38,324 nucleotides of DNA, from the NCBI GenBank assembly GCA_003552185.1, contig PUOW01000420.1, positions 1 to 38,324 of the forward strand, written 5' to 3'. Both the position numbers and the translations under genes were made by a program. This document shows positions 3,999-38,324 of this stretch, piece after piece. The DNA comes from Spirochaetaceae bacterium (GTDB lineage Bacteria; Spirochaetota; Spirochaetia; DSM-27196; SLAA01). Under the pieces are notes generated by a model that saw only the letters and a program-made list of their open reading frames with translations, did no database searches and had not been told where the DNA came from. Position 1 is the first letter of the stretch. Every line of letters begins with the position of its first letter.

Positions 3999-4064
3999 TC
4001 TCGGTATCGCCGGCCCGGTCGGCAACGGGTTGTGCGCCGAGTGTGCCGGCGGGAGAACGCGGTA

Positions 4065-4922
4065 ATGGCGAAGATTAGTCCGGAAGCAAAACATCGCTAC
4101 GCAGAAAAAGTCAAGGAATACAAGAAAGCGGCCGAAGCGATCGTGGAACGCGAAAAGAGCATCACCAAGACCATGAGTGAGGACGACGAGCGCGGCAACG
4201 TGCACAAGTCCATCACGTTGGCCGAGGAGCGGCTGAATCTGGCGTCCTACTACCTACTGCTCAACCGTGTGTCGCTCGCGTTACTCAATACGCGCAACGA
4301 GGGTTTCCTCAACGACGCTCGCAAGAGCTGCTACCAAGCGATCATCTATCTCGAGGAGGTGGTTACCGATTACCTCGATGTTCCGTACTCCGATTACGAA
4401 GACCGCCTCGAGTTGATGGGGCAGTACGACGACGAGCGACGGTGCTACCTTGCACGCAAGCTTGGGTTTACGATACAGCTGGTTAAGGACGCCTTCGGCG
4501 AGAACTCGAAATGGAAGTGGTCGTTTGTGGAGCTCGAGGGCCGGTACGCAACCGTCGTCAAGAACCTGATCGACCTCCGGCACGTCGTCGAAGGGCTTGA
4601 TCCGCGCGCGCCGGGCTACGAATCGCGCGTGACACTGGTAGCGCTATGCAAAGCGCGCCTCGCGCGCGCCGCCGATCGATACCGCGAACGTTACGAGCTC
4701 TCGACCGGCCGAATAGACGACTTCAAGCGCGCAATAGCGTATCTCTCGGCGTTGCGGCGTGTTCACGCGATTCTTAGCGAGAACGACGACGCCGAGCAGG
4801 TCAAGAAAAAACTCGAGGTCTGGAAGGCGAAGATGAACTCCGACGAACAGCGCTCCGAGGCAAGCAGCAAGAACGCCGAAGCGCAACGTCGGCAGGCGAA
4901 GTCGCAATCAGGCCGCCGCTGA
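4065..4922 (+). CDS. conserved hypothetical protein, helical, charged (spirochaete-type)
   Basis: Open frame with coding-like composition (MAKISPEAKHRYAEKVKEYKKAAEAIVEREKSITKTMSEDDERGNVHKSI...); no functional motif recognised. Confidence 0.7.
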   Translation: MAKISPEAKHRYAEKVKEYKKAAEAIVEREKSITKTMSEDDERGNVHKSITLAEERLNLASYYLLLNRVSLALLNTRNEGFLNDARKSCYQAIIYLEEVVTDYLDVPYSDYEDRLELMGQYDDERRCYLARKLGFTIQLVKDAFGENSKWKWSFVELEGRYATVVKNLIDLRHVVEGLDPRAPGYESRVTLVALCKARLARAADRYRERYELSTGRIDDFKRAIAYLSALRRVHAILSENDDAEQVKKKLEVWKAKMNSDEQRSEASSKNAEAQRRQAKSQSGRR

Positions 4923-4960: not shown

Positions 4961-5389
4961 CTACCCGTCGGTTTCTCGGTCTCGGCTGCCGAGCCCGTGC
5001 AGCGAATCAAACGGCAGCAGCGCTCCGGCGGTGGTTTCGATGATCGCGGTGCCGGGATTCTCAGCATCCTCACAATACACCGGCATCTCCGGCGCCGCGA
5101 ACTCGCGAATCACCTGTCGACAGGCGCCGCACGGCCCCACCGGTTCGTGGGCATCAGGGGTCGCGATCGCAAGCGCGCGGAAGGCGGTGTGCCCGGCCGA
5201 TACCGCTCCCACGATCGCCGATCGTTCGGCGCAGATCGTCAAGCCGTACGACCTGTTCTCGACATTTGCTCCGGTAATCACGGTTCCGTCCTCGCACAGT
5301 AACGCTGCGCCGACCCGAAAGCCGGAGTACGGGGCATACGCGAAGGCCGCCGCGTTGTGCGCCATCTGCAGTAGCGTCTCTTTCGTCAC
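4961..5389 (-). CDS. cdd: cytidine deaminase
   Basis: AYAPYSGFRVGAALLCEDG...GANVENRSYGLTICAERSAI...PVGPCGACRQVIREF: complete zinc-deaminase signature. Confidence 0.95.
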   Translation of the reverse strand: MTKETLLQMAHNAAAFAYAPYSGFRVGAALLCEDGTVITGANVENRSYGLTICAERSAIVGAVSAGHTAFRALAIATPDAHEPVGPCGACRQVIREFAAPEMPVYCEDAENPGTAIIETTAGALLPFDSLHGLGSRDRETDG

Positions 5390-5435
5390 AATAGGCTCCT
5401 ATTCGTGGCCGGCCGGCCGATCCTCGTGCGCAACG

Positions 5436-5464
5436 TTGACAGCGCGGAAGGCCTTCGATAGGAT
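5436..5464 (+). promoter_or_regulatory. sigma70-type promoter, TTGACA-N17-TAGGAT
   Basis: Perfect -35 at 5436-5441 and good -10 at 5459-5464, upstream of the ATG at 5542. Confidence 0.55.
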
Positions 5465-5541
5465 ACCGCCGAGTGCCGCCATCGTACAAGCGGTTCAGTA
5501 CCGCAGTGGTACGGAAACAGCGGCCTGGGATCATCGGCGGT

Positions 5542-6729
5542 ATGCGAACAACCAAGACACTGTTGCTGCTCGTGACGCTCGCGTTGCTCTATGCCGTGAT
5601 CAGTCCCGTGCCGTTGAGCCTTGAACCGACCCAGCGCGTGCGCTTCGTCACCGCGCTTGAACCGCACGACGATCACGAAACCCCGGGCCAGAACCAGCCG
5701 GGCCAGAACCAGCCGGGCGAGGACCAGCGCGCGCCGGCGACCGAGGAGCTGCGCGGCGACGAGAGGGTGCCGGGAGCTGAGCTTCGGCCGTTTCGGGGCC
5801 CCGGCCGCTTCGGGTATCTCCGGCACGACGGAACGGTCAAACAAAGCGAGCCGATATCGTACGGTGTCACGATTACCGACAGTCATTACCTCACCTACGA
5901 CCGCGCACCACAAGAGTTGGTGGTGCGCGCTCCGGGCGGGGCCGAGGTTGCGGCCTTGCCGCGCAGCGGTTACCCGATTGCCGCACAGGAACGAGTGTAC
6001 GTTCTCGATCGCTTCCAGGACGGCGTCACGGCCTACGAGCTCCAGTTCGGCAGCTCCGGTGGGGCGAGCGCCGAGCCGCGGGAGCTCTGGAGCCGACGGT
6101 TTTCATCGCCGGTTACCGATCTTGACGCCGCCGCCGACGGCTCGCTGTTGCTCGGATTGCTCGACGGGACCGCCGAGTATATCAGCCCCGACGGTGAGAC
6201 CGTGCAGTTCGGTCGTGGGCACTCGGGCGAGTCGAGAAGCGAGGTAGAGGCGGTCTACGCGGTCGCGTTGTCACCCGATGCCGGGATGGCAGCAGTTCTC
6301 ACCGGGCTGCGGCCTCAGCGACTGTTGGTGTACGAAATCAGCGCAGAGCGCGATCTTGAGCTGCTTCACACTCGCGAGCTCGAGCACGCGCGTCGCGGAC
6401 CGAGCCTGCTCCGCTTTGCGCCCGCCGGTGATCGCTTGGTGTACGAGCACGGCACGGTATTGACCGAGGTTTCGATGCGCAGCTTCGAGCACGCCGAGCT
6501 TGGGTTGCCTGCTGCGGTGGGCTCCCTTGAGCTGGGGACGCCGGACCGGCCGAGTGCGTTCGTGGTCCGCGGTGACGAGATGAGCGAGTTGCTGGTGCTC
6601 GCACCCAACCGCAGCACCGTGATGCAGTCTCGTTTGCCCGGGGAGGACGTATTCGTCACCGGTGGCGACGGCTGTTATGTTCTCGGAATCGAGGAGGTTC
6701 TCGTTTGCTTCGAGATTACCGACGGTTAG
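5542..6729 (+). CDS. exported/membrane-anchored beta-propeller-like hypothetical protein
   Basis: N-terminal hydrophobic segment MRTTKTLLLLVTLALLYAVISPVP, GQNQPGQNQPGE linker, then repeated blade-like segments. Confidence 0.6.
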   Translation: MRTTKTLLLLVTLALLYAVISPVPLSLEPTQRVRFVTALEPHDDHETPGQNQPGQNQPGEDQRAPATEELRGDERVPGAELRPFRGPGRFGYLRHDGTVKQSEPISYGVTITDSHYLTYDRAPQELVVRAPGGAEVAALPRSGYPIAAQERVYVLDRFQDGVTAYELQFGSSGGASAEPRELWSRRFSSPVTDLDAAADGSLLLGLLDGTAEYISPDGETVQFGRGHSGESRSEVEAVYAVALSPDAGMAAVLTGLRPQRLLVYEISAERDLELLHTRELEHARRGPSLLRFAPAGDRLVYEHGTVLTEVSMRSFEHAELGLPAAVGSLELGTPDRPSAFVVRGDEMSELLVLAPNRSTVMQSRLPGEDVFVTGGDGCYVLGIEEVLVCFEITDG

Positions 6730-18936: not shown

Positions 18937-20121
18937 ATGAAGTTTGAAAAGTTCGACGAGAACGCCGGCCTGCAGGACTCGTGCGGGACACCGACCGTGA
19001 TCAAAGTGATCGGTGTCGGCGGCGGCGGTAGTAATGCGGTAAACCGCATGATCGAGGCAGGCGTCGAGAACGTCGAGTTCATCGCGGTGAACACCGATCT
19101 TCAGGCATTACAGCTCTCGAGAGCCGAGGCGCGTATTCCGCTCGGCTCCAAGCTGACCGGTGGGCTCGGTGCCGGCGGGGTGCCCGATGTCGGTGAGCAA
19201 GCGGCGCTGGAAGACAAGGAAGAGATCCAGAACATGGTTCGCGGCGCGGATATGGTGTTCATAACCGCGGGAATGGGCGGCGGAACAGGAACCGGCGCGG
19301 CCCCGGTTATTGCGCAGGCCGCGCGCGAGATGGACATTCTCACGGTCGCGGTTGTGACGAAGCCGTTTGATTTCGAGGGCCGCAAGAAGTCGCGCTTGGC
19401 CGACGACGGTATCGCGAAGCTCCGCGATGCTGTCGATACCTTGATCACGATTCCGAACCAGCATCTCTTGAAGATCGTGGAGCGACGAACTCCGATCAAG
19501 GAAGCGTTCCTGATCGCGGACGACGTCCTGCGGCAGGGTGTGCAGGGCATCTCGGATCTCATCACCAAGCCGGGCGAGATCAATATCGATTTCGCCGACG
19601 TGAAAACGATCATGAACGGCCAAGGTGACGCTCTTATGGGCATAGGCGCCGGGAACGGTGAGAACCGTGCGGTCGATGCCGCGACCAACGCTATAAACAA
19701 TCCGCTGCTCGAGGACGCGCGGATCGAGGGCGCGAAGGGCCTGCTGGTGAACGTCTCGGGAGGCATGGATTTCGCGCTTACCGAGTACGAGGAGGTCCTG
19801 AACATTATCACCGCGAACGCCGATGAGGATGCCTTGATCATCGCAGGCAGCGCGGTCGATGAGCTCATGGAGGACGAGGTTCGCGTTACCGTGATCGCGA
19901 CCGGCTTCGACAACTCGCGCTGGTCGGATAAGCCGCAGCCGGTGCAGCAGGAGAAGAGGCAAGAGCAGTTTATCTCGTTGGATGAGTGGGTACAGATGAC
20001 CACACCGTCCATCTCGAGTAGTGAAGACATGACCCGCGAGCACTACGGCGGATCGGACGAGCTTGGCGTTCCGGCCGTTCTCAGGTATCGCAACTATCAG
20101 ACCGGCAATGGCGGCGCGTGA
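18937..20121 (+). CDS. ftsZ: cell division protein FtsZ
   Basis: [46 protein letters not shown] 18937 after GGGAGGGG. Confidence 0.97.
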
Positions 20122-21022
20122 AGGGGCGGAATACGGAACGCTGCTCGAGCGTTTCCGGGACTATCTACTGATCGAGCTCAAACTCTCGCGGCGGACGGTC
20201 GAGACCTATATGCGATCCTGCAGCAATTTCATCGCGTACTGCGTTGAGAATGGTCTTGATCCGCAGGTCTTGACGAGCAATGAGGTCATCGCGTACCTCA
20301 TCGCGCGTCAAACCGCGCCGGAGAACGCGGTAGATCAGCGCACGGTCGCGAAGATTCTCTCGGCGCTGCGTTCGTTCTTCGGCTTCATGGTGATCGAGCA
20401 GGAGCGGGACTCGAACCCCGCGCTGCTGATCGAGACCCCAAAAGCCGAGCAACGCGTGCCGGGGGTGCTGCCGGTTGAGGATGTCGAGCGTTTGCTCGAC
20501 GCAATCGATACCGATACTCCGGCCGGGTTGCGCGATCGTGCGCTGTTTGAAGTAATCTACTCCTGCGGGTTGCGCATCTCGGAAGCGGTAGAGCTGTGCG
20601 TAGATCGTCTCTATCTGAAGGAAGGCCTGATTCGGGTCCTCGGGAAGGGAGAGCGCGAGCGGCTCGTCCCGATCGGCGATGAAGCGATTGTGTGGCTCGA
20701 GCGTTATCTCGAGCACGGGAGGCCGCAGCTGTTGAAGGCAAAAGTTCGCACACGGAAGCTGTTTCTCAATCATCGCGGTGAGGGGCTTTCGCGCAAAGGC
20801 ATGTGGAAACGCTTCCGCCACATCGCGGATCAACTCGGTCTCGATGCCAAGGTGCATACGCTGCGGCACAGTTACGCCACGCATCTGCTCGCCGGCGGCG
20901 CCGATCTGCGCGCGGTGCAGGAGTTGCTCGGGCACGCCGATATCAGCACCACGCAGATCTACACGCATGTGGGACGCGAGGATTTGAGGCGGTACCATGC
21001 CGATCATCATCCACGTGCGTAG
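20108..21022 (+). CDS. Xer-family tyrosine recombinase (XerD-like)
   Basis: [64 protein letters not shown] overlaps the ftsZ 3' end. Confidence 0.9.
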
Positions 21023-21889: not shown

Positions 21890-22983
21890 TGAGTCGTGAA
21901 CAGGACCGCATGTTGTTGATGCTCGCGCTGAATCGTCGGCAGGCGTTCAGCTCGGCCGACAAGCGCTATCTCGCCGAGATACTGCGCGATACCGCCGACC
22001 TCGTGCGGTTGCCGGAGCAAGAGCTCAACGAGATGACCGAGGGCGATTTGCTGGACGAGCTCAGCAGCCCGTGGGATCCGGTAGAGCTGCTCGCCGAGGC
22101 CGAGGAGGAACTGAGCTTTCTCGAGCGCCGACAGATCGAGGGTGTGGTGTTCGGTCAACGCGAGTACCCGCCTCAGCTGCTCGAGCTCTACGATCCTCCG
22201 GCGGTGCTGTACCTACGCGGGCAGTGGCCTGCGCACAGTTGTCCGCAGGTTGCGATAGTGGGTACCCGCCGGCCGAGTCCGTGGGCCGAGCGTGCCGCGG
22301 TGTTACTTGGCCGCGGTTTGGCCGGCGCCGGGATTCCGGTGGTGTCCGGGCTCGCCCGGGGCATCGACGGCGCCGCGCATCGTGGAGCGTTGCAGCGTGG
22401 CGGGGCGACGGTTGCGGTGCTTGGATCCGGGATAGACCGGATCTATCCGCCGCAGCACGCGCTGCTCGCGGCGCGCATCGTTGAAGCGGGCGGCGTGGTC
22501 GTGAGCGAGTACCCAACCGGCTTCGATCCCGACAAGCTGCGGTTTCCGGAGCGAAACCGCATCATCAGCGGGCTCGCGCGCACCGTCGTGATCTGCGAGG
22601 CCCCCGAGAACTCCGGGGCTCTCATCACCGCCGAGTACGCGTTGGACCAAGGCCGCGATGTGGTTGTGCATGCCGCCGGCCTGCGCGGCGTGAAGGGAGC
22701 GGGCGCGCGTGCGCTCGCGACCGACGGAGCCGCGACGATCGAGTCGGCCGAGGATATTCTCCGCGACTGGGGCTTGGAGCGAAGCATAGCGACGCGGCTC
22801 GCGTCCGGCGTGGCCGGCTCGGCTGCTGCCGGGCCCTCATCGCCGGGCTGCGGCGCGCCGACGGTTGTCGGCGCCGAGCGCACCGCCGAGCGCTCGCCCG
22901 GCGCGCCGTCTCGCGTGGCCGGCTCGGCTGCGGTTGGCGAGGCGTTGGCCTTGGATCTTATGAAGGAGTTGCATCGCCCATGA
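21889..22983 (+). CDS. dprA: DNA processing protein DprA/Smf
   Basis: VAIVGTRRPSPWAERAA, SGLARGIDGAAHRGAL, VLGSGIDRIYPPQH, FPERNRIISGLARTVVICEAPENSGALITAEYALDQGRDV. Confidence 0.95.
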   Translation: MSREQDRMLLMLALNRRQAFSSADKRYLAEILRDTADLVRLPEQELNEMTEGDLLDELSSPWDPVELLAEAEEELSFLERRQIEGVVFGQREYPPQLLELYDPPAVLYLRGQWPAHSCPQVAIVGTRRPSPWAERAAVLLGRGLAGAGIPVVSGLARGIDGAAHRGALQRGGATVAVLGSGIDRIYPPQHALLAARIVEAGGVVVSEYPTGFDPDKLRFPERNRIISGLARTVVICEAPENSGALITAEYALDQGRDVVVHAAGLRGVKGAGARALATDGAATIESAEDILRDWGLERSIATRLASGVAGSAAAGPSSPGCGAPTVVGAERTAERSPGAPSRVAGSAAVGEALALDLMKELHRP

Positions 22984-23933
22984 AACGCGAGCTCGACCGG
23001 TACCTCGCCTATCTCTCGAGCGTACGCAACCTGAGCCCGAGCACGATTCGTGCCTACCGGGCCGATCTCCACGCGTTCTTCGACTGGGTCTCTCGCGAAG
23101 GACTTGCGTTCGAGCAGCTCGCGCTTCGCGATGCGCGCGCGTATGTCGCTCATTTGACGCGCAACAACGCGGCCGGAACCTCGGTGAACCGTGCGGTCTC
23201 GGCGCTCAAGGGCTTTTTTCGCCATCTTGTTCGCGTAGGCGCTCGCGAGTCATCACCGTTCGACGGCGTGCGCAGTCAAGCGAACCGGCGCAGATTGCCG
23301 GAGTTTCTGTTCGAGGAAGAGATGCGGCGAGTGCTCGAGATCGACGGCAGCGGTTTTGTAGATCTGCGAGACCGCATGCTGCTCGAGGTGCTGTACTCGG
23401 CCGGGGTACGCATCAGCGAATGCGTCGGCATCAACGTCACCGATCTCAACCTTGTTCGCGGGAGCGCGGTGGTGCACGGCAAAGGTCGGAAAGATCGAAC
23501 GGTGTTTCTCGGCGGCCCGGCCTTAACCGCGGTGAAGGAGTATCTGCCGATGCGCGAGGCCTTTTTGCGTCGAAAAGGGGCGCAGCAGGAGCAGGCGTTG
23601 TTGTTAAACACGCGAGGTGGTAGGCTGTCGGCGCGAGGGGCGGCCGAGATCGTGCATAAGCGTGTAGAGCGTGCCGAGACCGACAAGCATGTGACCCCGC
23701 ACACGTTCCGGCATAGTTTCGCCACGCATGTGCTCGAGCACGGCGCCGATATACGCGTGGTGCAGGAGTTGTTGGGGCACTCAAGCCTCTCGACGACGCA
23801 GATCTACACGCATATGGGGCTCGGGGCGTTGCGCGAGATCTACGCGCTGGCGCACCCGCACGGAACGCGACGCACGAAAAACGGAAACAAGGAAGCAGTA
23901 TGGGAACACAAGGGAACAAACGCCAAGAAGTAA
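22980..23933 (+). CDS. xerC: Xer-family tyrosine recombinase (XerC-like)
   Basis: [63 protein letters not shown] overlap with dprA. Confidence 0.9.
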
Positions 23934-32969: not shown

Positions 32970-33593
32970 ATGCCTGAGTATAGACGCTTTGGACCATTAT
33001 TACAGATCCTGATGCTCGTGTTGCTGGTAGCGGTGCTGACGACCGGCGGCGCATTGTGGTTCGATTATCTCGGCGTCATCGATACCGGTCGTACCTTTGC
33101 TCCGATCCTTCGACTGGTCGGTGTCGATCGTCCCCCTCCGGTTGAGGAAGTGGAAGATCCCGATCTGCTCGAGGCCGAGCGTGCCGAACTACAGGCCGAG
33201 GCATTAGCCTTGCGCGAAGAAGAGCTCGAGGAGCGCCGGCGTGAGCTCGAACAGGAGCGCGCCGAGATCGACCGACTGCGCGAGGAACTCGAGACTCGCG
33301 AGCAAGAGATCGAGGATCGTGAATTTTCATTCAATGAGCGGGTCCGGCAGTACGAGAATAGAAGGGAGGCTGTGATTCAAAACTCACGGGATCTGACGAA
33401 CATACCGCCCGACCAGGCGGTGCAGATTCTTGAGAGTTATGATGATCAGGACTTAGTCGACCTGTTCCGGGTCACCGAGGAGCTCGCTCAGGAAGAGGGC
33501 ACCTTCTCGTTCGTGTCGCTCTGGTTGGCGCAGATGCCGCCGGATCGCGCGGCCGAGATTCAGCGCAAGATGACGGTGAGGGCGGAACAGTGA
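32970..33593 (+). CDS. flbB: FlbB / MotE-like periplasmic motor-associated protein
   Basis: N-terminal TM, long coiled coil, C-terminal MotE-like (IPPDQAVQILESYDDQDLVDLFRVTEELAQEEG...LAQMPPDRAAEIQRKM); fliJ-flbB-fliK order. Confidence 0.87.
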   Translation: MPEYRRFGPLLQILMLVLLVAVLTTGGALWFDYLGVIDTGRTFAPILRLVGVDRPPPVEEVEDPDLLEAERAELQAEALALREEELEERRRELEQERAEIDRLREELETREQEIEDREFSFNERVRQYENRREAVIQNSRDLTNIPPDQAVQILESYDDQDLVDLFRVTEELAQEEGTFSFVSLWLAQMPPDRAAEIQRKMTVRAEQ

Positions 33594-33608: not shown

Positions 33609-35768
33609 GTGCTGCAACAGTATCAGTTGGGGCAGTTTGGACAGTTCGGAAAGACCACGGATCGCGGAACACCTTCGTCGTTCGATGCCGCCGGCGGGAA
33701 GGGGCCCGGAAGCATCGGGCAGTCCGCCCGCTTCAGCAATCTTGCCCCGCAGTCCGGAACTCAACCCCCCGATCTCTTCTCGTCCGAGCTCAACCGCGCG
33801 TTATTCCCGGCGCCGGGTGAGCGCCGCGGTGGGGCCTCGCGTGCCGACGGCCCTGAGATTCTTCATCGTCTGGGATTTGATCGAAACGGCGTAGACGAGC
33901 GGGTGCTCCACCGGACCGCCGACCGCCTCGTCGATCGCATGCGCGAGCTCGACGCCGGGATCGAGGAGCGCATCCGTGAGCGATTGCGCGCGCTCGAGCA
34001 CGACCGCAGCAGAGCGGCTCACGAGGCCGATGAGCGCTCACGAAACGCCGAGGTTGCCCGAGCCGCTCTCGAGGAAGAAGAGGATCAACGCTCGCGGAGT
34101 GCCGAGCGCGCCTCCGAGCAGTTCCGTGAGGCCGTCGCGGCGCTCCTCGTTCGGCTCGACCGCGAAACCGGCGACGAAAGCCGAGGGGCGGACGAGAGCC
34201 GAGGGGCGGACGAGAGCAATCGGCACGCCGGCGCCCGCGCGTCGACCGATGCCGCAGAGCTCGACCTGGAAGCACTCGAGCGAGTGCTGCACCTCATCGA
34301 GGCGCAACAGGACCGAGACCTTCAAATGCGGCCGGCGAACCGGGAACACCGGGCGGGCGCCGATCACGACCTCGGCGAGGGGCGGTCGCTTCGGACGGAA
34401 CGTGCGGTCGCCGGCGAAGGTGTGACGAAGCCGGCCGCGTCAGCCGATCACGCCGCGCGGTCTGCGCAGGCTAAGCTATCTGAAGAGCTCGAGCCGGCCG
34501 CGCAGGCCGAGTCCGGTGAAGCAGACGCACAGGCCTTGCGTCGGCTTCTCGCCTCGATCGAGCAGATCCTCACACAAGCGGCAAACGATGACACAACTGA
34601 AGCTCACGCCGGCCGCGCGGGCGGGGAGGCTTCCGAGGGTGCTTCAGAACTGAAGCGCACGATGGTGCTACGCCTCCTCGACGCCGATACCGACGCGCAA
34701 GGTGAAACCGGTGCCCGAGAGCGCGTGGTGGACCGCGAGGCGGTTCAAGAGCTCATCCGGCAGTTGCGAACGCTCGAGCGCGCGCCGGGCGGGGACGGTG
34801 AGCAACGTGCAACAGAGAGCTTGGCTCGGGAATCGCGCGCCGAAACGCTCGATCTTCAGCGGATCGCCGAGCTGGTGAAGCGCATGCGCGAAACCGGAGA
34901 CGCGAGCGCAACCGAGCGCGTACAGTCGGAATCCGTTGCCCGGCTCCGGGCGGCACTCGAGCGTGAGCAGGCCGACCGAGACGATTCCGAGCGCACCGGC
35001 TCCCGGCTCGCCGGGCGCGAAACCGACCGAGAGGACGAGGCGTCCGATCGTCGGATCCGGGTGCGCGACCTTCGCGCGCGGGGTGAAGCGCGTGGCGATA
35101 GGCGCGACGCGGCGGGCTCGCAGGCGCGCGAAGAGCGCTCCGAAGCGGTGCGCGGCGCGCGCGGCGCAGCCGAAAACGCCGGGCGCTCCTCCAGCGCGCG
35201 GGGCGAGGTCGGCAGAAGCGAGTTTCGCCTCGAGCGTTCCGAGGGCGGCGACGGCGCCGCCGACCGTGCCGCGGGACTCCGGTCCGGCGAGAGCGCGGCC
35301 GCAACCCGTCAGGCGCCGCTCACCCGCTTCGGGGCGCAGCAGCAGGCCGAGGCGCAGCTCGCGCGCCACATCCGGAACGAGTTGCCGGAGCAGGTACTGA
35401 AGCAGGCTCGCATGACGATCCGCGGTGACGGAGATGCCGAGATGCGCCTCAGTCTGAACCCGCCTGAGCTCGGAGGCGTTCGGGTGCGAATGCAGATGCA
35501 GGACAACCTAATCGCGGTGCGCTTTATTGTCGAGAATAATACTGTGCGCGATGTGTTCGAGCAGAACCTGCCGAGCCTGCAGCAACAGTTGGCCGAGAAC
35601 GGGTTCGAGAATGCCGGGATCGAGGTTTCGGTCGGCGGCAACTCGGATGCCGATCAGCAAGGCCACGCGACCGCCGGGGGCGGTCGAGGACTCGAGGAGC
35701 TCGATGCCGGCGTGCCGGCGGCGACCGAGTCGTATAGAGAAGAAACGCGCATCGATTTGATGGTGTAA
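33609..35768 (+). CDS. fliK: flagellar hook-length control protein FliK
   Basis: C-terminal IRGDGDAEMRLSLNPPELGGVRVRMQMQDNLIAVRFIVENNTVRDVFEQNLPSLQQQLAENG; GTG start. Confidence 0.9.
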   Translation: MLQQYQLGQFGQFGKTTDRGTPSSFDAAGGKGPGSIGQSARFSNLAPQSGTQPPDLFSSELNRALFPAPGERRGGASRADGPEILHRLGFDRNGVDERVLHRTADRLVDRMRELDAGIEERIRERLRALEHDRSRAAHEADERSRNAEVARAALEEEEDQRSRSAERASEQFREAVAALLVRLDRETGDESRGADESRGADESNRHAGARASTDAAELDLEALERVLHLIEAQQDRDLQMRPANREHRAGADHDLGEGRSLRTERAVAGEGVTKPAASADHAARSAQAKLSEELEPAAQAESGEADAQALRRLLASIEQILTQAANDDTTEAHAGRAGGEASEGASELKRTMVLRLLDADTDAQGETGARERVVDREAVQELIRQLRTLERAPGGDGEQRATESLARESRAETLDLQRIAELVKRMRETGDASATERVQSESVARLRAALEREQADRDDSERTGSRLAGRETDREDEASDRRIRVRDLRARGEARGDRRDAAGSQAREERSEAVRGARGAAENAGRSSSARGEVGRSEFRLERSEGGDGAADRAAGLRSGESAAATRQAPLTRFGAQQQAEAQLARHIRNELPEQVLKQARMTIRGDGDAEMRLSLNPPELGGVRVRMQMQDNLIAVRFIVENNTVRDVFEQNLPSLQQQLAENGFENAGIEVSVGGNSDADQQGHATAGGGRGLEELDAGVPAATESYREETRIDLMV
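34173..34208 (+). repeat. 18-bp in-frame tandem duplication within fliK (DESRGA x2)
   Basis: gacgaaagccgaggggcg / gacgagagccgaggggcg. Confidence 0.8.
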
Positions 35769-35786: not shown

Positions 35787-36221
35787 ATGGAACTTAATCC
35801 GACGATGGGCGGCAGCGAGCTGTCGCGTTTGAAATCGCAGATCGAGCAGTACAATCAGAGTCTGCATGAAGAACGAGCGCCGAAGCAGGAGTTGGGACGC
35901 GACGACTTTTTGAAGATCCTGATCACGCAGCTTCAGAATCAGGACCCGACCGCTCCGATGGAGGACAAGGAGTTCATCGCACAGATGGCGCAGTTCTCGT
36001 CGCTCGAGCAGATGACGAATATCTCGGACGAGTTCCGGAAACTTTCTTCTCTGGTGAACTCAGGGCACGCGTCGCAACTCGTCGGGAGAACCGTTGAGGT
36101 TCAGCAGGGCGAGAGCGTCGTCGAGGGCGTGGTTGAGCAGGTTACCACCGGTGAGTTTCCGCAGGTGAAGCTCAACGACCGGTTTTACGACTACGAAGAC
36201 GTTGTCCGCATTAGCAAGTAA
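35787..36221 (+). CDS. flgD: flagellar hook capping protein FlgD (short form)
   Basis: LGRDDFLKILITQLQNQDPTAPMEDKEFIAQMAQFSSLEQM. Confidence 0.95.
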   Translation: MELNPTMGGSELSRLKSQIEQYNQSLHEERAPKQELGRDDFLKILITQLQNQDPTAPMEDKEFIAQMAQFSSLEQMTNISDEFRKLSSLVNSGHASQLVGRTVEVQQGESVVEGVVEQVTTGEFPQVKLNDRFYDYEDVVRISK

Positions 36222-36235
36222 GGGGGCGTAACGAT

Positions 36236-37645
36236 ATGATGCGATCGCTGTACTCCGGTGTCTCCGGGCTTCAGAATCACCAGACAAGAATGGACGTGAT
36301 CGGTAACAATGTCTCGAACGTCAACACCACCGGGTTCAAGCGCGGACGGGTGAACTTCCAGGACATGATCTATCAAATGACGCAGGGCCCGGCGCGCCCG
36401 CGTGAGCAGGTTGGGGGGATCAACCCGCAGCAGGTTGGTCTCGGCATGCAGGTCGGATCGGTGGACACCATCCATACGCAAGGCTCGCTCGAGACCACCG
36501 GGGTGCGCAGCGACCTCGCGGTGCAGGGCAACGGCTTTTTCGTGATGCGCGACGGCGACGAGCAGCTCTACACCCGCGACGGTTCGTTCAATGTCGACTC
36601 GGAAGGCATTCTCGTCAATCCCGCGAACGGTATGCGGGTGCAAGGCTGGCAGGCCGAGACCGAGGACGGCGAGACGGTGATCAACACCGCCGGGCAGATC
36701 GGTGACCTCGAGATTCCGATCGGCGGCAAGGACCCGGCCCAGGAAACCACCGAGGTTCACCTCGCAAGCAATCTCAATAAAATGACGCCGGTGATTCCCG
36801 AGGACGCCACCGCCGAGCAGATCCGCGAGGGCACCTGGGTGGTTGAGCAAGACATCTACAACTCGTTCGGCGGAACGCATACGCTGCGCGTTGAGTTCAC
36901 GCGCGTGCCCGATGAAGAGAATCAGTGGCTTACCACGGTTCAGATAGACCCTGAGGGCGATGAAGAGGTGGAGCAAAACATCTCGGTCGGCGGCGTCACG
37001 AGCGCCGACGGTCAGAGTTTCATCCTAGAATTCGACAATGACGGCACGCTACGCCGGGCTTTTAATCCTGAAGGTGGTATGATGGATACCGACGAGGTGT
37101 TTGTGAATCTCGAGTTTGAGGTTCCCGAAACCTCGATTCCGGAGGACGAAGACACCGGGCTGCCGGGCGAAGCGGTGACGCAAGACTTCAACTTGAATCT
37201 CGGACAGGTCGGGGCGTTTACCGATTCCATGACACAGTACGCGTCCCAGAGTTCAACCAAGGTATTCAGCCAGAACGGAAATCCGATGGGCTACCTTGAG
37301 GACTATCGCATCGACCAGTCGGGAACGATAACCGGCGTGTTCTCGAACGGAACCAACCGTGAGCTCGGCCAGGTGGCACTTGCATCGTTTACGAACGTGG
37401 GCGGCCTCGAGAAGAGCGGAGAGAACAACTACCGCGAATCAATCAACTCGGGACTCGCAGACATTACGCCCGCCGGCGTGGCCGGCAAGGGCTCGGTTAT
37501 TTCAGGCGCATTGGAGATGAGCAACGTAGACCTGTCGCAAGAGTTCACCGATATGATCGTAACGCAGCGTGGCTTCCAGGCCAACTCGCGCACGATTCAG
37601 ACGGCGGACCAGATGCTACAGGAGGTCTTAACACTCAAGCGCTAA
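36236..37645 (+). CDS. flgE: flagellar hook protein FlgE
   Basis: MMRSLYSGVSGLQNHQTRMDVIGNNVSNVNTTGFKRGRVNFQDM...; C-terminal EMSNVDLSQEFTDMIVTQRGFQANSRTIQTADQMLQEVLTLKR. Confidence 0.97.
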   Translation: MMRSLYSGVSGLQNHQTRMDVIGNNVSNVNTTGFKRGRVNFQDMIYQMTQGPARPREQVGGINPQQVGLGMQVGSVDTIHTQGSLETTGVRSDLAVQGNGFFVMRDGDEQLYTRDGSFNVDSEGILVNPANGMRVQGWQAETEDGETVINTAGQIGDLEIPIGGKDPAQETTEVHLASNLNKMTPVIPEDATAEQIREGTWVVEQDIYNSFGGTHTLRVEFTRVPDEENQWLTTVQIDPEGDEEVEQNISVGGVTSADGQSFILEFDNDGTLRRAFNPEGGMMDTDEVFVNLEFEVPETSIPEDEDTGLPGEAVTQDFNLNLGQVGAFTDSMTQYASQSSTKVFSQNGNPMGYLEDYRIDQSGTITGVFSNGTNRELGQVALASFTNVGGLEKSGENNYRESINSGLADITPAGVAGKGSVISGALEMSNVDLSQEFTDMIVTQRGFQANSRTIQTADQMLQEVLTLKR

Positions 37646-37665: not shown

Positions 37666-37866
37666 ATGATTAAGGTTACGCGGCTCGGGGGAACCAACAC
37701 CTACTATGTAAACCCGCACCAGATCGAGTACATCGAGACCAACCCCGATACGACCCTGGTGATGCTCTCGGGTAAACGCCTGATCGTCGCGGAGGACTAC
37801 CAAACCTTGTTTGACGAGATTGTCGCCTACCGCCGGCTGATCGGTGCATTTAAGAACGAGGAGTAG
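37666..37866 (+). CDS. flbD: flagellar protein FlbD
   Basis: MIKVTRLGGTNTYYVNPHQIEYIETNPDTTLVMLSGKRLIVAED, between flgE and motA. Confidence 0.93.
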   Translation: MIKVTRLGGTNTYYVNPHQIEYIETNPDTTLVMLSGKRLIVAEDYQTLFDEIVAYRRLIGAFKNEE

Positions 37867-37869
37867 GGT

Positions 37870-38324
37870 ATGGATCTCAGTACCATTATTGGCGTAGGCG
37901 CAGGCTTTCTGATGGTGTTCGTCGGAATCATCATTGGGGGTGCCGGGCTCGGTGTCTATGCCAGCCCGGAGTCGGTGCTGATTGTGTTCGGCGGATCGTT
38001 CGGAGCGATGATGGTTGCAAACCCGTTGTCGCGTATGCTCGGTATCATGCGCTATGTCAGTCATGCGCTCCGAACCGCCGATTGGCGCGAGCAGCAGCTG
38101 ATCAACGAGCTCGTCGGCTTCTCGGACCGCGCCCGCCGCGAGGGTCTTCTCGCGCTTGAAGACAACCTCGATCAGGTCGAAGACGAGTTCATGCGCAAAG
38201 GCGTGCAGCTGGTGGTGGACGGAACCGATCCCGAGATCATCAAGAGCATTCTCTACAACGACCTCAATCAGTTGCAGGAGCGGCACGAGACCGGCATCAA
38301 GCTGTTCGACGACTGGGGCAAGAT
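37870..38324 (+). CDS. motA: flagellar motor stator protein MotA (3' truncated by window)
   Basis: MDLSTIIGVGAGFLMVFVGIIIGGAGLGVYASPESVLIVFGGSFGAMMVANPL...; absent from the ORF track because it runs off the window. Confidence 0.95.
   Translation, partial: MDLSTIIGVGAGFLMVFVGIIIGGAGLGVYASPESVLIVFGGSFGAMMVANPLSRMLGIMRYVSHALRTADWREQQLINELVGFSDRARREGLLALEDNLDQVEDEFMRKGVQLVVDGTDPEIIKSILYNDLNQLQERHETGIKLFDDWGK

Follow-up and report, generated by a model that had tools for sequence, protein, structure and literature searches.

Lysinoalanine crosslinks have been proven in the flagellar hooks of Treponema, Borreliella, Brachyspira and Leptospira (Lynch et al., 2023, PMC10691653), and T. denticola and Borreliella that are unable to crosslink are non-motile, though hook and filament still assemble (PMC10691653). 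In most other bacteria the hook comes apart into monomers (PMC4032328). Cysteine has been described as the conserved crosslink residue of FlgE outside Leptospira, with S178 mentioned for Brevinema, whereas in L. interrogans FlgE it is Ser179 that yields lysinoalanine, both in vitro and in vivo, with Lys166 and also Lys145/Lys148 as partners (PMC10691653). The T. denticola variant C178S likewise crosslinks in vitro (PMC10691653). Leptospira FlgE needed pH 10-11 for crosslinking in vitro, and a clear lysinoalanine product was found in native Leptospira filaments despite this low in vitro reactivity, so that the authors suspect unknown cellular factors (PMC10691653). We found no later paper on serine-type hooks in the open-access literature. 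Serine-derived lysinoalanine is already known from Leptospira, and the FlgE analyzed here is a serine-type hook protein from a further lineage.

The flgE locus and its crosslink residues

The window, i.e. the whole stretch of DNA that was analyzed, comprises 38,324 nt of a Spirochaetaceae bacterium (DSM-27196; SLAA01), namely positions 1 to 38,324 of the forward strand of PUOW01000420.1 in assembly GCA_003552185.1; all features given below lie on its + strand. Translation, Pfam and PDB matches identify 36236..37645 as flgE, coding for a flagellar hook protein of 469 aa with the domains Flg_bb_rod, FlgE/F/G D1, FlgE_D2 and Flg_bbr_C, and the domain architecture, flgD and fliK upstream and a single genome copy make it a genuine FlgE. 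The hook cap gene flgD (35787..36221; Pfam FlgD, 1.4e-23) is located directly upstream of flgE and follows fliK for hook length control (33609..35768; Pfam Flg_hook, 5.6e-21), and downstream of flgE are found a probable flbD of 66 aa (37666..37866) and the first part of a motA-like gene that runs off the end of the window (37870..38322, an open ORF), both named from position and sequence without a database match. The whole order, consisting of hslV/hslU-like genes, flgB/flgC-type rod genes, fliF, fliG, fliH, fliI, fliJ, fliK, flgD, flgE and the flbD- and motA-like ORFs, is an ordinary flagellar cluster.

Within flgE, codon 165 is AAG (Lys, 36728..36730), codon 178 is AGC (Ser, 36767..36769) and codon 179 is AAT (Asn, 36770..36772), and there is no cysteine among the 469 residues in the translation of 36236-37645, exactly as an earlier note on this DNA had read them. 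The note had also placed Lys and Asn in register with the T. denticola crosslink site, which was borne out by a gap-free alignment with T. denticola FlgE (6ndx_B, E 7e-96), in which K165 falls on K165 and S178 faces a position where 6ndx_B has Ala; this alignment excludes misalignment at the site. By this register Lys165 is the predicted amine donor of a lysinoalanine crosslink and Ser178, replacing Cys, the predicted precursor of dehydroalanine. Ser340-Thr341-Lys342 (37253..37261) is the counterpart of T. denticola Thr334 to Lys336, which lie close to the crosslink site. The seven lysines of the protein are residues 35, 165, 182, 342, 393, 418 and 468.

A sequencing error at 36767, for which the note had allowed, is excluded as the source of Ser178 by the same residue in FlgE of the same genus at 98% and 90% identity and in 32 of the 33 FlgE of the order. 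Its other proviso, a second, Cys-bearing flgE elsewhere, found no counterpart in the 92% complete genome, where the remaining matches were FlgG/FlgF-type proteins on contig 317, and nearly all relatives have one flgE copy. One genome of another family (G178, family f68; 2% contamination) carries two different full-length serine-type flgE (L140 and L148), which may represent either a genuine second hook gene or an artefact of binning.

Several other features of the window were observed. A 207 aa ORF between fliJ and fliK (32970-33593) matched no curated family above the cut-off and gave a weak coiled-coil-like match; its position suggests a spirochaete FlbB/MotE-like protein. Three consecutive ORFs (4032-4922, 5031-5624 and 5473-6729) are without Pfam match and are flanked by RecN-like and M23 peptidase-like genes. 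A tyrosine recombinase gene follows ftsZ (20063-21022) and a second lies just before the hslV/hslU-like genes (22980-23933), a layout that resembles xerD/xerC-hslVU adjoining a flagellar operon. The calculated pI of the window FlgE is 4.2 (mean of the order 4.4; Cys-type FlgE overall about 5.1), and such a very acidic FlgE would be expected for a salt-adapted organism.

Serine and cysteine at position 178 across the spirochaetes

The alignment with spirochaete orthologues that the earlier note had proposed was carried out as a survey of FlgE from 67 families, mostly with one genome per genus, supplemented by named genomes and by a termite-gut family. In a first set of 144 sequences Lys165 and Asn179 were invariant and position 178 was occupied by Ser in 69 and by Cys in 75; at the family level, 34 of the 67 families had only Ser, 31 had only Cys and 2 were mixed. 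The enlarged set of 236 distinct spirochaete FlgE contained Cys in 159 and Ser in 77 sequences and nothing else at this position, totals that reflect the choice of genomes, those of the Treponema-like group being over-represented in this set. No different residue aligned at the crosslink site in any of the 236 sequences, a case the note had also considered, and Lys165, Thr171 and Asn179 were present in every one of them. The hydroxyl at residue 340 (T. denticola Thr334) was always kept (Ser 163, Thr 73), and residue 342 (T. denticola Lys336) was Lys in 213 of 236. A coupling of residue 342 to the Ser/Cys state was considered and rejected, as Lys in 74/75 Cys rows versus 53/69 Ser rows comes down to a difference in 1-3 of 5 independent pairs, which is not significant.

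Cys178 was the sole cysteine in 153 of the 159 Cys-type FlgE, and 74 of the 77 Ser-type FlgE were without any cysteine. In the order to which the window belongs, 32 of 33 FlgE read have Ser178, among them Salinispira pacifica (K165, S178, no Cys). The earlier note had treated cysteine as the universal residue of spirochaete hooks and Ser178, by implication, as a rarity. The former does not hold for Leptospira and Brevinema, whose FlgE carry Ser there (PMC10691653), and the latter is at odds with our survey, in which Ser is the rule in the window's order and is found in roughly half of the families sampled. Taken from these alignments, Ser and Cys would seem to be alternative states of a single site, both of them common throughout the phylum, suggesting that the serine form is not a peculiarity of Leptospira and is common in the phylum together with an invariant lysine partner, which is the new element here.

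A rather different picture was obtained for 39 alignable FlgE of Bacillota, Actinomycetota, Armatimonadota and others, where position 178 was Gly in 34, Lys in 3, Tyr in 1 and Asn in 1, and never Ser or Cys. Lys165 was found in only 4 of these 39 sequences and Asn179 in all 39. Asn179 is thus kept in all FlgE and therefore not specific to the crosslink, whereas the pair of Lys165 with Ser or Cys at 178 is a spirochaete feature whose members have been kept together.

Repeated interchange of the two residues

The changes at position 178 were counted on a FlgE gene tree from which column 178 had been masked; as this was a single tree from a short search, the counts are estimates and undirected. 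For the 144 sequences 9 Ser/Cys changes were obtained (5 forced by well supported branches), and for the 236 sequences the best estimate was 12 (7 forced by well supported branches), so that Ser and Cys have replaced each other at least 7 and, by best estimate, 12 times. One of these events apparently took place recently within the window's order, as a switch from Ser to Cys in L024 (G039), the only Cys178 FlgE found there, whose Cys178 is its sole cysteine. Conversely, further clear late switches are seen in the termite-gut family, which, with FlgE otherwise of the Cys type, includes a genus with Ser178 in four of four sequences (g231; L229-L232, G619-G622) and two g41 species with Ser178 (L293 in G579 and L295 in G577). 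Among the 33 Ser-type sequences of the window's clade (the order plus f22), at least 7 changes between AGY and TCN were counted for the Ser178 codon itself, compared to 1-5 at other well conserved Ser columns in the same clade, which is suggestive, though only that, of passage through Cys (TGY).

Constraint on Lys165 and structure of the D2 domain

Among the Ser-type sequences on the tree Lys165 did not change once, while columns 140-350 changed 17 times on average. Had the crosslink been given up in the Ser lineages, Lys165 would have been free to drift, and the lack of any such substitution makes the uncrosslinked hook that the earlier note had offered as one option unlikely, also because Ser and Cys can both give dehydroalanine and position 178 was always occupied by one of them. 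That this position, in spite of many switches, never left the choice of Ser or Cys would likewise be as predicted for a dehydroalanine precursor.

An AlphaFold2 monomer model of the window FlgE, built from an alignment of 50 FlgE, was confident for D1/D2 (about residues 90-420), whereas the terminal helices were poorly modeled. Its D2 domain matched the lysinoalanine-crosslinked T. denticola dimer 6ndx_B with a TM of 0.86 and the dehydroalanine intermediate 6ndt with a TM of 0.88 (both over the target), as well as the T. denticola wild type 6ndw and the K336A mutant 6ndv (TM 0.84 each), a comparison that concerns the fold only and, coming from a monomer, says nothing on distances between subunits. 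As modeled, the D2 fold that holds the crosslink site is present in the window FlgE, and by sequence the protein has the Lys at 165, the Cys-or-Ser at 178 and the Asn179 of crosslinking FlgE. It lacks the Cys178 that characterizes the cysteine-type lysinoalanine FlgE of Treponema, Borreliella and Brachyspira, and it also lacks the lysines at Li145/148 of the Leptospira type with its multiple partners, the stretch from residue 36 to 164 being free of lysine.

A probable serine-derived crosslink and its alternatives

The explanation that we favor, with a probability of roughly 0.65, is that the window FlgE, a spirochaete hook protein of the serine type, continues to form the lysinoalanine crosslink, self-catalyzed at the same site. 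Ser178 would lose water to give dehydroalanine, which would then be attacked by Lys165 of a neighboring FlgE subunit to form lysinoalanine, at a self-catalyzing site that would be the same as in the Cys proteins, with a first step slower from Ser. That this reaction occurs in the window FlgE we infer from Leptospira and T. denticola. Of the earlier note's second option, dehydroalanine made from Ser by another route, the serine origin remains a live option, whereas a separate route appears unneeded since the chemistry established for this site would suffice, although it is slower from Ser. The motility of the serine-type Salinispira pacifica, set against the non-motile T. denticola and Borreliella without the crosslink, also speaks for a serine-derived crosslink. 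Against it stand the poorer quality of Ser as a precursor and the pH of 10-11 that Leptospira FlgE needed in vitro, and Lys165 may owe its conservation to an ordinary contact unlike the one made in other phyla.

A first alternative is that the crosslink forms between Ser178 and Lys165, but that FlgE does not dehydrate the serine by itself and relies on a second protein to activate or dehydrate it in the periplasm. The contrast between low in vitro reactivity of Ser-type FlgE and clear product in native Leptospira filaments, for which cellular factors have been proposed (PMC10691653), fits such a helper, as does the growth optimum of Salinispira pacifica at pH 6.9-7.0 (range 6.5-8.4), well below the pH at which Leptospira FlgE reacted in vitro. 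However, recombinant Leptospira FlgE reacts alone at high pH (PMC10691653), and only ordinary flagellar genes surround the window flgE, so that we consider a helper unlikely. A search for lanthipeptide dehydratase families in 46 genomes of the order gave no matches, with the search controls being silent too. A broader version, which we hold to be doubtful but somewhat worth entertaining, is that serine-type hooks of free-living spirochaetes may form lysinoalanine at neutral pH through an unrecognized helper or through an altered active site that makes water, instead of hydrogen sulfide, the leaving group, in which case one and the same self-crosslinking residue would have alternated repeatedly between these two leaving groups in the history of the phylum.

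If the hook of this lineage were instead not covalently crosslinked, Ser178 and Lys165 would have to be kept for non-covalent contacts between subunits. Such a hook could well be built, given that T. denticola and Borreliella assemble hook and filament even when the crosslink is missing (PMC10691653), that in most other bacteria the hook falls apart into monomers (PMC4032328), and that Ser is a poor dehydroalanine precursor. A purely structural site should, however, accept Ala, Gly or Thr at position 178, none of which was found in the 77 Ser-type and 159 Cys-type FlgE, and the absence of Lys165 substitutions in the Ser rows as well as the non-motility of crosslink-less mutants of two species, compared to the motile serine-type Salinispira, also argue against purely non-covalent contacts, which we regard as a distinctly unlikely basis for the conservation of the site. 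An adaptation of Ser178 to alkaline habitats, in which a basic periplasm would ease Ser dehydration, is highly improbable: it could draw on the high pH needed by Leptospira FlgE in vitro and on two serine-type Treponema FlgE from termite gut compartments (P1 highly alkaline, P3/P4 moderately alkaline or circumneutral), but Leptospira, which are not known as alkaliphiles, are serine-type, and the rule suggested by the termite hint and by a soda-lake hint, a putative origin of the relative PLM2.Bin37, is contradicted in general by Salinispira pacifica, which is neutrophilic, motile and serine-type, so that habitat pH is not the rule.

The hook of the window organism is therefore, judging by its residues and their conservation, probably still crosslinked through Ser178. 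The finding that Lys165 is never lost alongside Ser or Cys at 178 predicts hook crosslinking in flagellated spirochaetes generally and bears on plans to target the crosslink via its Cys chemistry. Salinispira pacifica DSM 27196, as a cultured, motile, neutrophilic and free-living serine-type strain, is suited to asking how an unactivated serine dehydrates near neutral pH.

Comparison with known crosslinking hooks

In comparison with the characterized hook proteins, the window FlgE resembles that of Leptospira interrogans in its Ser at the crosslink position, its Lys in register and the lack of a crosslink Cys. Leptospira adds Lys145 and/or Lys148, whereas the window FlgE has nearby only the canonical Lys165 (or Lys182/Lys342), and the crosslink is proven in Leptospira, while the window FlgE is known from its sequence. 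With T. denticola FlgE (6ndx, 6ndt, 6ndw, 6ndv) it has in common the D2 fold, Lys165, Asn179, the hydroxyl and Lys at 334/336 and a gap-free site alignment, and it differs in having Ser178 where T. denticola has Cys178. Brevinema andersonii FlgE shares both Lys165 and Ser178 and represents another lineage of the phylum, likewise known from its residues (PMC10691653). Finally, the FlgE of L024 (G039), from the same order and 71% identical to the window FlgE, has Cys178 in place of the Ser178 of the window.
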